Source: Salinisphaera hydrothermalis C41B8 (GTDB taxonomy: Bacteria; Pseudomonadota; Gammaproteobacteria; Nevskiales; Salinisphaeraceae). Taken from it: a DNA stretch of 60,874 nucleotides. Of the stretch, positions 13,463 through 18,780 are shown in pieces. Each line of letters starts with the position of its first letter. Position 1 is the first letter of the stretch. The translations under genes were made by a program, and so were the position numbers. The notes below the pieces were generated by a model, which was not told the DNA's origin, ran no database searches, and saw only the letters and a list, made by a program, of their open reading frames with translations. The stretch spans positions 1-60,874 of the forward strand of contig NZ_APNK01000022.1 in NCBI RefSeq assembly GCF_000732535.1, in the 5' to 3' direction.

Positions 13463-15001
13463 ATGACTCCGTCCGTTACCGTAGCCGCTGTGGACCTCGG
13501 TTCCAACAGTTTTCACATGTTGGTCGTGCGGTCTGAACAGGGTCAGCGACGCGTTCTGGATCGCATCAAGGAGTCGGTTCGCCTGGCCGGCGGGCTTTCG
13601 GCGGATGGTCGTCTCGACGAGGAGACCCAGCAACGGGCGCTCGATTGTCTGGCCCGGTTCGGTCAGCGGCTGGCCCAGTTCGATGCGACCCGGGTGCGCG
13701 TGGTGGGCACCAATACGCTGCGTCAGGCGCGGGGGGCGGGCCAATTCATCGCCCGGGCCGAAGCGGCGCTGGGCCACCCCATCGAAATCATCTATGGGGT
13801 CGAGGAAGCCCGTCTGATCTATGCCGGGGTGGCCGAAGACCTGGATGCCGGGGCGGCGCAACGGCTGGTGGTGGATATCGGCGGCGGTTCGACCGAGCTC
13901 GTGATTGGTCGCGGGCCGCAGGCATATCGTGCGGAGAGCGTGGCATTAGGTGCGGTGACCTATACCGCGCGGTTTTTCGCCAGCGGCAAGATCGACAAAT
14001 CGTCCTGGAAGGCCGCGGTCACCGAGGCTCGCCTCGCGCTCGAGCCGCTGGCCTACGATTATGGCGAACTTGGCTGGGATGTGGCCATCGGCGCGTCCGG
14101 CAGTATCAAGTCGATCGCCCGGGCGGTGGGCGCCGACGGGCCGGGTGAACTGATCACCGGTGATGCGTTGGAAAAGCTGGCACGTCGCTTGTACAAGGCC
14201 GGCTCGGTCGAGAAGCTGTCGCCGGACGGGGTCTCAGCCGAGCGCCGCGCGATTTTTGCCGGTGGCCTCGCGGTGCTGGTGGGCGTGTTCGAAAGCCTTG
14301 GCATCGAGGCCATGCAAGTCTCGGACAAGGCGCTGCGCGAAGGGGTGATCAGCGATTTGTTGGGCCGGTTGTCCGCGCACGACTCACGCGATGATGGGGT
14401 GGACGATGCCGCCCGACGATTCGTGATCGATCGCGAGCACGGCCGGCGTGTGGCCGATACTGCGACGCGGCTGTGGCGCTCCGGCCATGGCGGCGATGCC
14501 GCCGATGACGACAATGGGCTCGCCGAGGCCGCGCGGGTGCTGCGCTGGGCCGCGATGCTGCACGAAATTGGTCTCGTGGTGGCCCATCGGGCCTATCACA
14601 AGCACGGTGAATACCTGCTCGACAACGCCGATATCCGCGGTTTCTCCCAGGCCGACCAACATCTGCTGGCGACCATCGTGCGTTTGCACCGCGGGCGTTT
14701 TCGCACCGAGCTGATCGATGCGCTGCCGCCGGTGTGGCAGTCACGTACCTGGGACATCGTACTGGCGTTGCGTATTGCAGTAATTTTGCATCGCGGACGC
14801 AATCCCGCGACGCGTCCGCCGGTCACGTTCACCCACGGCGACAAGAAGCTCACGGTATCGATCGATACGGAGTGGCTCGCCCAACGCCCGCTCACGCGTA
14901 CCGATCTAGAGCACGAGGGAGAGCGCCTGGCCAAGGCCGGCCTCACCCTCGATCTTGTGGAAACGACGATCCCCGAAGCGGCGACGCCAGTCCGCCAATG
15001 A
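13463..15001 (+). CDS. ppx: Exopolyphosphatase / Ppx-GppA phosphatase
   Basis: This 512-residue member of the Ppx/GppA family removes terminal phosphate from polyphosphate (or pppGpp). The ASKHA nucleotide-phosphate motifs are AVDLGSNSFHMLVV at residues 9-22 and VVDIGGGSTELVIG at about 135-148. The C-terminal HD-like domain includes LHEIGLVVAHRAYHKHGEY. Its last residues (PVRQ) and the TGA stop are encoded by the left boundary of the dispersed repeat, so the original C-terminus may have been replaced by repeat insertion. Confidence 0.92.
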   Translation: MTPSVTVAAVDLGSNSFHMLVVRSEQGQRRVLDRIKESVRLAGGLSADGRLDEETQQRALDCLARFGQRLAQFDATRVRVVGTNTLRQARGAGQFIARAEAALGHPIEIIYGVEEARLIYAGVAEDLDAGAAQRLVVDIGGGSTELVIGRGPQAYRAESVALGAVTYTARFFASGKIDKSSWKAAVTEARLALEPLAYDYGELGWDVAIGASGSIKSIARAVGADGPGELITGDALEKLARRLYKAGSVEKLSPDGVSAERRAIFAGGLAVLVGVFESLGIEAMQVSDKALREGVISDLLGRLSAHDSRDDGVDDAARRFVIDREHGRRVADTATRLWRSGHGGDAADDDNGLAEAARVLRWAAMLHEIGLVVAHRAYHKHGEYLLDNADIRGFSQADQHLLATIVRLHRGRFRTELIDALPPVWQSRTWDIVLALRIAVILHRGRNPATRPPVTFTHGDKKLTVSIDTEWLAQRPLTRTDLEHEGERLAKAGLTLDLVETTIPEAATPVRQ

Positions 15002-15771
15002 ACGCGAAGTGCGCTAATGGCGGATGGGGTTTGCGACCCGGATGATGCGGGGCGCCGCTGTGCTTTTCTGGCTTCGTTTCTTGGAAGAAAACTGTCCGCA
15101 GATCAACGCCGATTCACACAGATGCGGTTCGGCTTTCGCGGCGTAGCGGGTTCGAGGCGCTAAGGGGCGACGGAGCCGAACAACGCTTGCAACCCAATTG
15201 ATTCGTTCGGGAACGGAGTGAATAGCACAATTTGCGCCCCGGTCGAACTTACGTCCCTGACGGTTAACCGCCATCTGCGTGATCTGCGTCGATCTACGGA
15301 TCAATGCCTTAAGAGGAACGAAGAGAGCAGTCACGTGGCGCCCCGAAACCAAGGCGGTCGTTAAATCCAGTCCGCCAATGAACGCGAATAACGCCAATGG
15401 CGGATTGGTATTTCGACCTGGGGGATGCGGGGCGCCGTTCGCTTGTCGGGCTTTGTTCCCTCGAAAAAGGCTGTCTGCCGATCAACGCCGATTTACACAG
15501 ATGCGGTTCGGCTTTCCCGGCGCAGCGGCCCTGGGGCGCTAACGGGCGACGAAGCCGAACAACGCGTGCAACTATATTGATTCGTACGGGAACGAAGCGC
15601 ATACCGCAATTTGCGCCCCGGTCGAACTCATGCCCCTAACGATTAACCGCCATCTGCGTGATCTGCGGATCAATGTCTCAAGGAACGAAGAGACAGATCA
15701 CGTGGCGCCCCGAAACCAGGAAGTCGCAAATCCAGTCCGCCATTTGCGCCCTTGGCGTTCATTGGCGGACT
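14989..15771 (+). repeat. Two tandem units of a nested inverted-repeat element
   Basis: Two units (14,989-15,368 and 15,369-15,733) are closed by an inverted terminal hairpin (15,734-15,771, arms AGTCCGCCA and TGGCGGACT). Each unit starts with a hairpin AGTCCGCCAATGAACGC...GGCGGAT. The sequence reading inward from the right end (hairpin, GGATTTGCGAC, GGGGCGCC, TTCGTTCC, CCGCAGATCACGCAGATGG) mirrors the left end over about 130 bp. The centre holds its own hairpin, GTTCGGCT...AGCCGAAC (15,127-15,181 in the first unit). No transposase is present. A third copy lies in reverse orientation at 1-325. Small frames inside are repeat artefacts. Confidence 0.9.
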
Positions 15772-15806
15772 GAAACTGCTATGGGTTGCCCCGCGGGTCG
15801 TTTTTT

Positions 15807-17426
<1,620 letters not shown>

Positions 17427-17484
17427 TTTGCGCTCCGATCGGACGACCGAACGTTCGTATGTCGCTGAGTCGACTCGAAATAAT

Positions 17485-17501
17485 AGCTGTATAGTACAGC
17501 T
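17485..17501. promoter_or_regulatory. Perfect inverted repeat between prfC and the putative small RNA
   Basis: AGCTGTA-TAG-TACAGCT is a perfect 7-bp dyad. It overlaps a TATAGT hexamer on the plus strand and lies beside TATTAT on the minus strand, so it could control prfC, the putative small RNA, or both. The spacing does not fit LexA (CTGT-N8-ACAG). The protein that binds it is unknown. Confidence 0.4.
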
Positions 17502-17544
17502 CTATGTTCCATTAAAAGAAATTTAATTAGCCTCGGTTAGGGCC

Positions 17545-17743
17545 GATGACTATATTTGATCTCGACGGCAGCGGCGCAATACCGCTGCCACCGCAGAAAC
17601 GGTGTCCCCCTTCACCGACTCTGCCCGCATAGCCGCATCCTACCCGAGTCGGGCGGCTATGCTTCAGGGTGTCGCCCGCCCCCTGGCGGCGCCCACTGGC
17701 TGGCCCGGATCGGATGCCCTCCCGATCCGGGCCTCTTTTTTTT
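17545..17743 (+). ncRNA. Putative structured small RNA with C-rich hairpin loops
   Basis: This gap has no coding gene but ends in a textbook plus-strand terminator with no upstream plus-strand gene to serve. Four more hairpins precede it. Hairpin 1 is GGCAGCGG/CCGCTGCC (17567-17589). Hairpin 2 is CGGTG/CACCG (17600-17617), with loop TCCCCCTT. Hairpin 3 is GCATAGCCGC/GCGGCTATGC (17627-17662). Hairpin 4 is GGGTGTCGCC/GGCGGCGCCC (17667-17694; two G-U pairs), with loop CGCCCCCT. The exposed C5 loops could pair with Shine-Dalgarno sequences, as described for C-rich-loop sRNAs of other bacteria. The 5' end is uncertain; a TATATT hexamer (17551-17556) or the upstream palindrome region may be the promoter. 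No known RNA family was recognised. Confidence 0.6.
17702..17743 (+). terminator. Strong rho-independent terminator
   Basis: A 12-bp perfect stem GGCCCGGATCGG / CCGATCCGGGCC with an 8-nt loop is followed by TC and eight Ts. The T-run fixes the direction as plus strand, opposite to the genes on both sides. Confidence 0.93.
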
Positions 17744-17767: not shown

Positions 17768-18040
17768 TCAGGTCACCGTGAACGGTGACGGCAGATCGGT
17801 ATCGTCCGCGTTCTGTTCGGATACCTCGCCGACCCGAGCCATGCCGGGGCCGTCGTGCAGCCAAACGCGCAGCGCGTCGAGATCCTCGGGGGCGCCGCGT
17901 GCCATGAGTTCCACATCGCCGTCGGCGCGGTTTCTTACCCAGCCGTCGAGCGACAGTTTACGGGCTGCATCGCTGGTGGCGGCTCGAAAACCCACGCCCT
18001 GAACCCGGCCGCGGACACGGAAATATCGTGTTTCGGACAT
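17768..18040 (-). CDS. acyP: Acylphosphatase
   Basis: This 90-residue enzyme hydrolyses carboxyl-phosphate bonds of acylphosphates. The family signature GRVQGVGFR (catalytic Arg) lies near residues 10-18 and GWVRNRADGDVE (catalytic Asn) near 34-45. I chose the ATG at 18040, which gives the usual length; an earlier in-frame start would add eight residues. Its start region lies close to the divergent hypothetical gene at 18097. Confidence 0.93.
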   Translation of the reverse strand: MSETRYFRVRGRVQGVGFRAATSDAARKLSLDGWVRNRADGDVELMARGAPEDLDALRVWLHDGPGMARVGEVSEQNADDTDLPSPFTVT

Positions 18041-18096
18041 GGCGTATTGCGCGCGTATACTCAAAGCCCAGATTGTACATGTTCGGAGACGCGTGC

Positions 18097-18780
18097 ATGT
18101 GGCAGGCCTTTAAACGACGGGCGACGCGGCTGAGCAGTTTGGCGGCGGTCGATCGGGTCGGCCCGCGGGAGGCGAGTCTGCGGCTCACGTTGCCCAACCC
18201 CTACGGCGGCCCAGCCTGGGTGACGGCCACAGTCGCCTTGTCGAGCCGTCCGCGCGGCATGGGAGAAACCGTACGCGTGCGTGGGCATATCGATAGCTGT
18301 TTTCGGATGCCCGCGGACAGCGGCGATCGCGAGGCGTTGGCGCACGACGCCGGCAACGATACACACCCGCTGATGCGATACGGCCGTCAAGCCGCGGCCT
18401 CTTTGACGCGCCGGGCGCTCGAGCGTCTGCCGCGTGCGGCGCGCATGCGGCTCGCCGAGCAGCGGCGACAGAACTGGATCGACATGCAGATCAGCACGGC
18501 ACCGCTGGATGCAGGCGCCGCCGCGTTGATGCCGGAGCGGTTACGAGCGGTCTACGGCGACGCGCTGCCTCAGATTGCACCCGGCGGGCCGCGTGTCGGT
18601 GTCTGGTCCGGGCCGGCCGGCGGCGCTCGCGGCGGCATGGCCCGGCTGGCGATGATTCAGTTCGACCAGAACGACCTCAGCTCCGATGCACGCGGCGACG
18701 ATCGCGAGCGTTTCAGCCTGAATCTGAGCATTGCCGAGGTCGTCGAGCCGGCGGCCGGCGACGATCGCGACGTGGACTGA
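18097..18780 (+). CDS. Hypothetical protein, no recognised domain
   Basis: This protein of about 227 residues starts at the ATG at 18097, preceded by GGAG at 8 bp spacing. It is arginine- and alanine-rich, with an internal basic helix (LTRRALERLPRAARMRLAEQ), and has no signal peptide or membrane segment. It has a beta-rich first third (ASLRLTLPNPYGGPAWVTAT) and an acidic end. I do not recognise the family. Codon usage looks native, and the convergent neighbour is the parB-like gene. Confidence 0.6.
   Translation: MWQAFKRRATRLSSLAAVDRVGPREASLRLTLPNPYGGPAWVTATVALSSRPRGMGETVRVRGHIDSCFRMPADSGDREALAHDAGNDTHPLMRYGRQAAASLTRRALERLPRAARMRLAEQRRQNWIDMQISTAPLDAGAAALMPERLRAVYGDALPQIAPGGPRVGVWSGPAGGARGGMARLAMIQFDQNDLSSDARGDDRERFSLNLSIAEVVEPAAGDDRDVD

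Follow-up and report, generated by a model that had tools for sequence, protein, structure and literature searches.

The intergenic region between prfC and acyP in Salinisphaera carries what is, judged from its sequence, a new RNA family of a known kind, the C-rich-loop small RNAs (sRNAs). In our assessment this element is probably a stand-alone gene for a trans-acting C-rich-loop sRNA of about 180 nt that would act by masking ribosome-binding sites containing runs of G. Comparison of its orthologous copies shows a conserved structure, nearly invariant C-rich loops, a -10-like box and a constant place beside prfC. The existence of the RNA gene itself appears well supported on these grounds, pairing of its C-rich loops to Shine-Dalgarno sequences is plausible, and the set of G-run genes described below is best regarded as a lead to its regulon.

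Structure and conservation of the prfC-acyP element

The window, that is, the whole stretch of 60,874 nt analyzed here, is contig C22 of Salinisphaera genome G000. The element lies in it between two minus-strand genes, prfC (15807-17426, start at 17426), the product of which matches the PrfC model NF001964 with 853 bits, and acyP (17768-18040, end at 17768), coding for an acylphosphatase (PF00708, 81 bits). The first-pass annotation had identified both genes and their strands correctly, but the gap between them measures 341 bp and not the 330 bp it gave. The parts of the element, all on the plus strand, are as follows.

17551-17556, plus strand: putative -10 box TATATT (CTATANT); CTATA in 14/14 orthologous regions
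17557-17743, plus strand: small RNA gene as modelled (covariance model R1); predicted transcript of about 180 nt
17567-17589, plus strand: hairpin 1, loop not C-rich; from the fold, with two-sided changes in 3/8 pairs
17591-17624, plus strand: hairpin 2, outer stem GCAGA/TCTGC, inner stem CGGTG/CACCG, loop UCCCCCUU at 17605-17612
17627-17662, plus strand: hairpin 3, conserved apical CCCGA (14/14); two-sided changes in 4/7 modelled pairs
17667-17694, plus strand: hairpin 4, loop CGCCCCCU at 17677-17684; two-sided changes in 7/10 pairs
17702-17743, plus strand: intrinsic terminator, loop GCCCUCCC, T tail; GCCCTCCCGA in 14/14, two-sided changes in 2/12 pairs

The strong plus-strand terminator and the four hairpins preceding it, as proposed in the first-pass annotation, were both recovered. 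The terminator is formed by a 12-pair stem (17702-17733) followed by TCTTTTTTTT, and its T run is found on the plus strand only. The minimum free energy of the segment 17545-17743 is -101 kcal/mol, compared with -71.0 +/- 4.5 kcal/mol for 200 dinucleotide shuffles (z -6.66), none of which folds as low, so that base composition by itself does not explain the fold. Two C5 loops had been placed in hairpins 2 and 4, and there they are; conserved C runs are also present in the terminator loop (GCCCUCCC) and in hairpin 3 (CCCGA). The element thus combines the traits by which C-rich-loop sRNAs are recognized: stable hairpins, two or more loops with conserved C runs, and an intrinsic terminator.

Compensatory changes in related species, on which the earlier reading had been made to depend, are readily apparent in an alignment of 14 copies (13 of them distinct) with a mean column identity of 76%. 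Across its 47 modelled pairs, 96.7% of the pair cells are still paired, and 16 pairs present two-sided changes with pairing kept, against 8.8 +/- 1.8 in shuffled alignments, 0/500 of which reach 16. Sliding the partners by 1-3 columns, as a control, left only 1-5 pairs with such changes. Hairpins 1, 3 and 4 hold 14 of the 16 two-sided pairs and the terminator the other two; hairpin 2, with its invariant inner stem, has none, so that folding energy and conservation are the grounds for its pairing. The loop of hairpin 2 contains C5 in 14/14 copies and that of hairpin 4 in 13/14, with C4 in the remaining one (L007). While the stems vary, 14/14 copies share CCCGA, GCCCTCCCGA and, in hairpins 2 and 4, a C run of at least CCCC. 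Mean pairwise identity, computed on 12 rows, is 0.84 for the terminator, 0.75 for hairpin 2 and 0.59-0.66 for hairpins 1, 3 and 4, and outside the gene it amounts to 0.50 just upstream and 0.30 downstream.

Transcription is predicted to start at about 17562-17565. Upstream of CTATA, the sequence AATT(A/G) occurs at a fixed spacing in all 13 regions holding that stretch; a sigma-70 consensus scan did not list TATATT (17551-17556), and no -35 box was recognized. The conserved -10-like box would putatively serve a plus-strand RNA running from about 17563 to the end of the terminator at 17743. Toward prfC, the gap holds another conserved stretch (17481-17530, mean identity 0.71) and a palindrome, AGCTGTATAGTACAGCT, at 17485-17501, the core of which, TGTATAGT, is kept in 13/13 of the orthologous regions that reach that far (of 14). 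This palindrome may be the promoter of prfC or an operator common to prfC and the RNA.

Two further observations concern the surroundings of the locus. A 250-aa plus-strand ORF (18028-18780) overlaps the acyP start and has relatives in L001-L014, with no match in Pfam or NCBIfam. The gap between a ppx/gppA-like gene and prfC is taken up by two copies of a repeat of about 380 bp (14987-15718), in blocks of 38-227 nt that are 84-89% identical, and an inverted 69-nt piece is located at 15704-15772.

Distribution and synteny

A DNA search of 61 genomes located the element in 14/14 Salinisphaera genomes, G000 included. Covariance model R1 matches the same 14 with E values of 1.5e-32 or lower, these being the copies that built it, and it also matches both genomes of the sister genus (G016, E 1.7e-11; G014, E 3.3e-11). 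Since both of the latter copies lie outside the model, their matches provide an independent confirmation. The PrfC proteins of the sister genus are about 74% identical and the gene order prfC-RNA-acyP-parB is that of Salinisphaera. Both copies keep the C5 loop of hairpin 4 and a run of C5 or longer in hairpin 2, and both are devoid of the CCCGA apical motif and of the CCCUCCC terminator loop. The element is divergent to prfC in 15/16 genomes; in the remaining one (L005) the contig ends before prfC is reached, and acyP follows as elsewhere. In L008-L013, acyP is located some 0.8-0.9 kb further off and the element is intact.

Application of R1 to 85 genomes of the order yielded 16 places and five weak ones, with no accepted match in the other 69 genomes, including G015, the one genome available from the third genus of the family. 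Upstream of prfC in 16 genomes outside both genera, G015 among them, inspection by eye revealed no such element. The five weak matches were rejected: L032 (E 3.7e-6) and L034 (E 0.0099) read as coding ends followed by a terminator and lack loops with C runs; L033 consists of a single hairpin resembling a terminator; and L035 and L036, judged by their coordinates, lie antisense over the palindromic terminator. In 369 genomes of the class, three Salinisphaera genomes were matched and the other 366 gave two weak matches, neither of which was counted. The L037 match (E 6.2e-7) shares sequence with the 3' end of an ORF and contains a single hairpin with a UCCCC loop, followed by a terminator; L038 (E 0.0036) resembles the end of a coding region plus a terminator. 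Two short DNA matches (L015, query 29-77; L016, query 23-46), which were read and not folded, come from genomes with no R1 match and were likewise set aside. Distant relatives may escape these large genome draws, because stricter filters apply there. The element is also found in records titled Endozoicomonas sp. G2_2 (L043) and Lysobacterales bacterium SP48 (L042), titles that look wrong because the matching genomes, G008 and G010, are placed in Salinisphaera.

G-run start sites and competing explanations

The complement of the hairpin-2 loop UCCCCCUU is AAGGGGGA, which occurs 3-8 nt before ATG at 96 places in the 14 Salinisphaera genomes; its reverse occurs at 13, and the corresponding figures for AAGGAGGA before ATG are 87 and 24. 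Any Shine-Dalgarno-like site beats its reversed pattern, which makes that control weak, and the AAGGAGGA gene set is hence the better one. That AAGGGGGA is at least as frequent as AAGGAGGA before ATG in Salinisphaera is odd, since its pairing with the 16S rRNA tail is the weaker of the two. In four genomes searched for all AAGRRGGA variants, the counts were 29 for AAGGGGGA, 21 for AAGGAGGA, 12 for AAGAAGGA and 7 for AAGAGGGA, and in one Salinisphaera genome, G002, the order of the first two is reversed (4 vs 8).

The genes behind these sites differ in the predicted location of their products. From 95 AAGGGGGA places fetched (two overlapping rows being one place), 82 had an ORF of at least 40 aa, as did 80 of the 87 AAGGAGGA places. 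By a hydropathy rule, which is not a trained predictor, 66/82 of the AAGGGGGA products and 40/80 of the AAGGAGGA products are exported or membrane-like (P 6e-5, on the same data that suggested the comparison), and by protein family the proportions are 40/55 and 25/51 (P 0.017). Recurrent AAGGGGGA clusters, of each of which one or two members were checked in Pfam, comprise TonB receptors, DctP-type and OpuAC-type binding proteins, Na/alanine and Na/solute symporters, and short-chain fatty-acid transporters.

We followed the putP- and dctP-type orthologues across 17 genomes of the Salinisphaeraceae. With two remoter paralogues and an additional gene fragment set aside, at least four Gs precede the start of 12/13 putP-type orthologues, with five in eight, and the exception is the sister-genus copy, which has GGG only. 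The dctP-type genes, at 11 loci of which two without a readable start were left out, have five Gs before the start in 9/9. The prfC gene itself presents a GGAG/AGGA site in 12/14 loci (12/12 in Salinisphaera, the two without it being those of the sister genus) and never four Gs. None of these counts represents independent events, because several of the genomes are close to one another. At four G-run sites, the duplexes predicted with loop 2 have energies of -14.3 to -14.6 kcal/mol, and those that the 16S tail forms with these sites have -10.8 to -12.7 kcal/mol.

The bias towards exported or membrane-like products is small in a second sample, made up of 674 genes that a home-made gene caller with approximate starts predicted in stretches of two genomes plus the window. 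These stretches were selected by position, though on contigs that had already given hits, and two share 1.5 kb. Sites with four or more Gs, only 8% of the starts, precede exported or membrane-like products in 29/56 cases (52%) versus 221/618 (36%) for the rest (P 0.021). By genome, the figures are 16/29 for G000 (P 0.011) and 13/27 vs 122/290 for G004 (P 0.55), where the effect is absent; for G5 sites they are 9/17 (P 0.20), which is not significant. Of the 49 ORFs called in the window, two are preceded by four Gs and none by five. Among relatives, the two sister-genus genomes, which carry the RNA, contain no AAGGGGGA-ATG site; in ten relatives that lack it, the sites number 42 for AAGGGGGA and 68 for AAGGAGGA, as against 96 and 87 in Salinisphaera (P 0.022), the balance being very uneven among those relatives (7 vs 1 in G022, 0 vs 4 in G023). 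In 29 genomes of relatives without the RNA, putP orthologues were found in two, and the only one that is readable (L319) has an AAGGA site and no G-run. Given the weak second sample, the sister genus without AAGGGGGA-ATG sites and the RNA-less relatives that use AAGGGGGA, the G-run regulon is therefore put forward as a lead.

Under the mechanism that we favor, a plus-strand RNA would run from a start near 17563 to the end of the terminator at 17743, and its rigid hairpins would offer two short seeds, UCCCCCUU in hairpin 2 and GCCCCCU in hairpin 4. By pairing with ribosome-binding sites in which GGGG or GGGGG lies close upstream of the start codon, and competing there with the 16S rRNA tail, the seeds would lower translation of a group of mRNAs in which transporters, solute-binding proteins and TonB receptors are probably over-represented. 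The conserved G-run sites amount to a short list of directly testable candidate targets. A bolder proposal, which we regard as speculative and somewhat unlikely, is that the G-run is a regulon mark, transporter and envelope genes keeping GGGGG rather than GGAGG for joint shut-off by one RNA that is linked to prfC and has three or four C-rich loops; if so, the regulon could be read from sequence alone.

A conserved sRNA with C-rich loops need not act at start sites. The loops might instead bind a protein, as a sponge or scaffold, or pair in coding regions or 5' UTRs off the ribosome-binding site, the G-run starts then being unrelated. This would accommodate both the sister genus, which has the RNA and lacks AAGGGGGA starts, and the use of AAGGGGGA by RNA-less relatives, and there is a precedent in PmaR, a C-rich-loop RNA that is reported to act mostly outside the Shine-Dalgarno region (PMC6234868). 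It leaves unaccounted for the retention in Salinisphaera of the G-run at putP- and dctP-type starts and of GGAG at prfC, as well as the complementarity of the hairpin-2 loop to eight bases around the G-run starts, and we hold it to be an unlikely alternative, though one to be taken seriously.

Two other readings would do away with the sRNA altogether. The location of the element, divergent to prfC wherever the contig reaches that gene (15/16), and the conservation of 17481-17530 would suit a purely cis-acting element with no free RNA, be it a prfC 5' region or divergent promoter or a terminator between prfC and acyP. Such a role is highly improbable given that the T run of the terminator is confined to the plus strand, where no gene reads into the terminator, that three further hairpins covary and a fourth has an invariant C5 loop, and that the element persists in L008-L013 in spite of the greater distance to acyP. 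A small plus-strand protein gene, for its part, is barely credible. ORFs of 28, 66, 59 and 39 aa do cross the element, but the orthologues differ by 1-2 nt indels, each reading frame has stops in some of the 14 copies, no conserved ORF was found among them, and the three ORFs searched in Pfam (28, 66 and 59 aa) gave no match. The candidate C-rich-loop sRNA proposed by the first-pass annotation is thus supported, that annotation having been right in its observations and, as far as sequence can tell, in their interpretation.

Comparison with known C-rich-loop RNAs

The element had been said to recall sX13 and 6C RNA without belonging to a recognized family, and both parts of this statement hold. 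Rfam 15 gives no match at gathering score in the whole window. In permissive scans, sub-threshold matches to ar14, sX13 and ar7 appear beside unrelated families for the window copy, to ar14, 6C, sX13 and CcsR1 for L010, and to 6C for L031. When the element is scanned alone the top one is ar14, and with a longer window stretch the first are Rhizobiales-2, ctRNA and suhB. The scores for ar14 (RF02344; 28.3 bits in the window, 38.5 in L010, 33.7 in L008) compare with a gathering score of 58.8, those for sX13 (RF02232; 17.5 in the window, 18.2 in L010) with one of 50, and those for 6C RNA (RF01066; 33.6 in L010, 19.8 in L031) with one of 47; 6C RNA has no match in the window copy up to E 10. Because all these scores are far below the cut-off, the element resembles the C-rich-loop kind and falls in none of these families.

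Both sX13 and 6C RNA act without Hfq or other chaperones, and the rigid build of the Salinisphaera RNA recalls them. For sX13, a rigid, Hfq-independent multi-hairpin RNA of 115 nt is described, with three stems and C4/C5 apical loops including UCCCCCU; it represses mRNAs whose ribosome-binding sites carry G-runs, is encoded downstream of polA and is reported in Xanthomonadaceae only (PMC3771888). A rigid multi-hairpin build with C-rich apical loops is common to both RNAs, whereas that of Salinisphaera has four hairpins plus a terminator and adjoins prfC (15/16 genomes) instead of polA. The 6C RNA of Actinobacteria is likewise made of hairpins with C runs in the loop, but its model has two hairpins. 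We take B11 of Mycobacterium abscessus to be a 6C RNA. B11 is reported to repress eccB4, which has six Gs in its 5' UTR (PMC10470900). The alphaproteobacterial ar14 is similar in its three C-rich-loop hairpins and, in the alignment, its CCUCCC terminator loop; it differs in that its loops are CCUCCUCC, not CCCCC, and in belonging to another bacterial class.

Silencing of many transport genes is also known for the sRNAs GcvB and AbcR1/2, the seeds of which are single-stranded and not C loops. Their likeness to the Salinisphaera RNA lies in its proposed mode of action only, and neither has an Rfam match in the window copy up to E 10. The link of AbcR to ABC transporters is drawn in PMC3712013. 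A literature search for Salinisphaera and sRNA found no sRNA work. Hence, the element described here would add to a halophilic lineage an sRNA family without an Rfam 15 match and, besides sX13, 6C RNA and ar14, a further, apparently unrelated, case of a C-rich-loop RNA.
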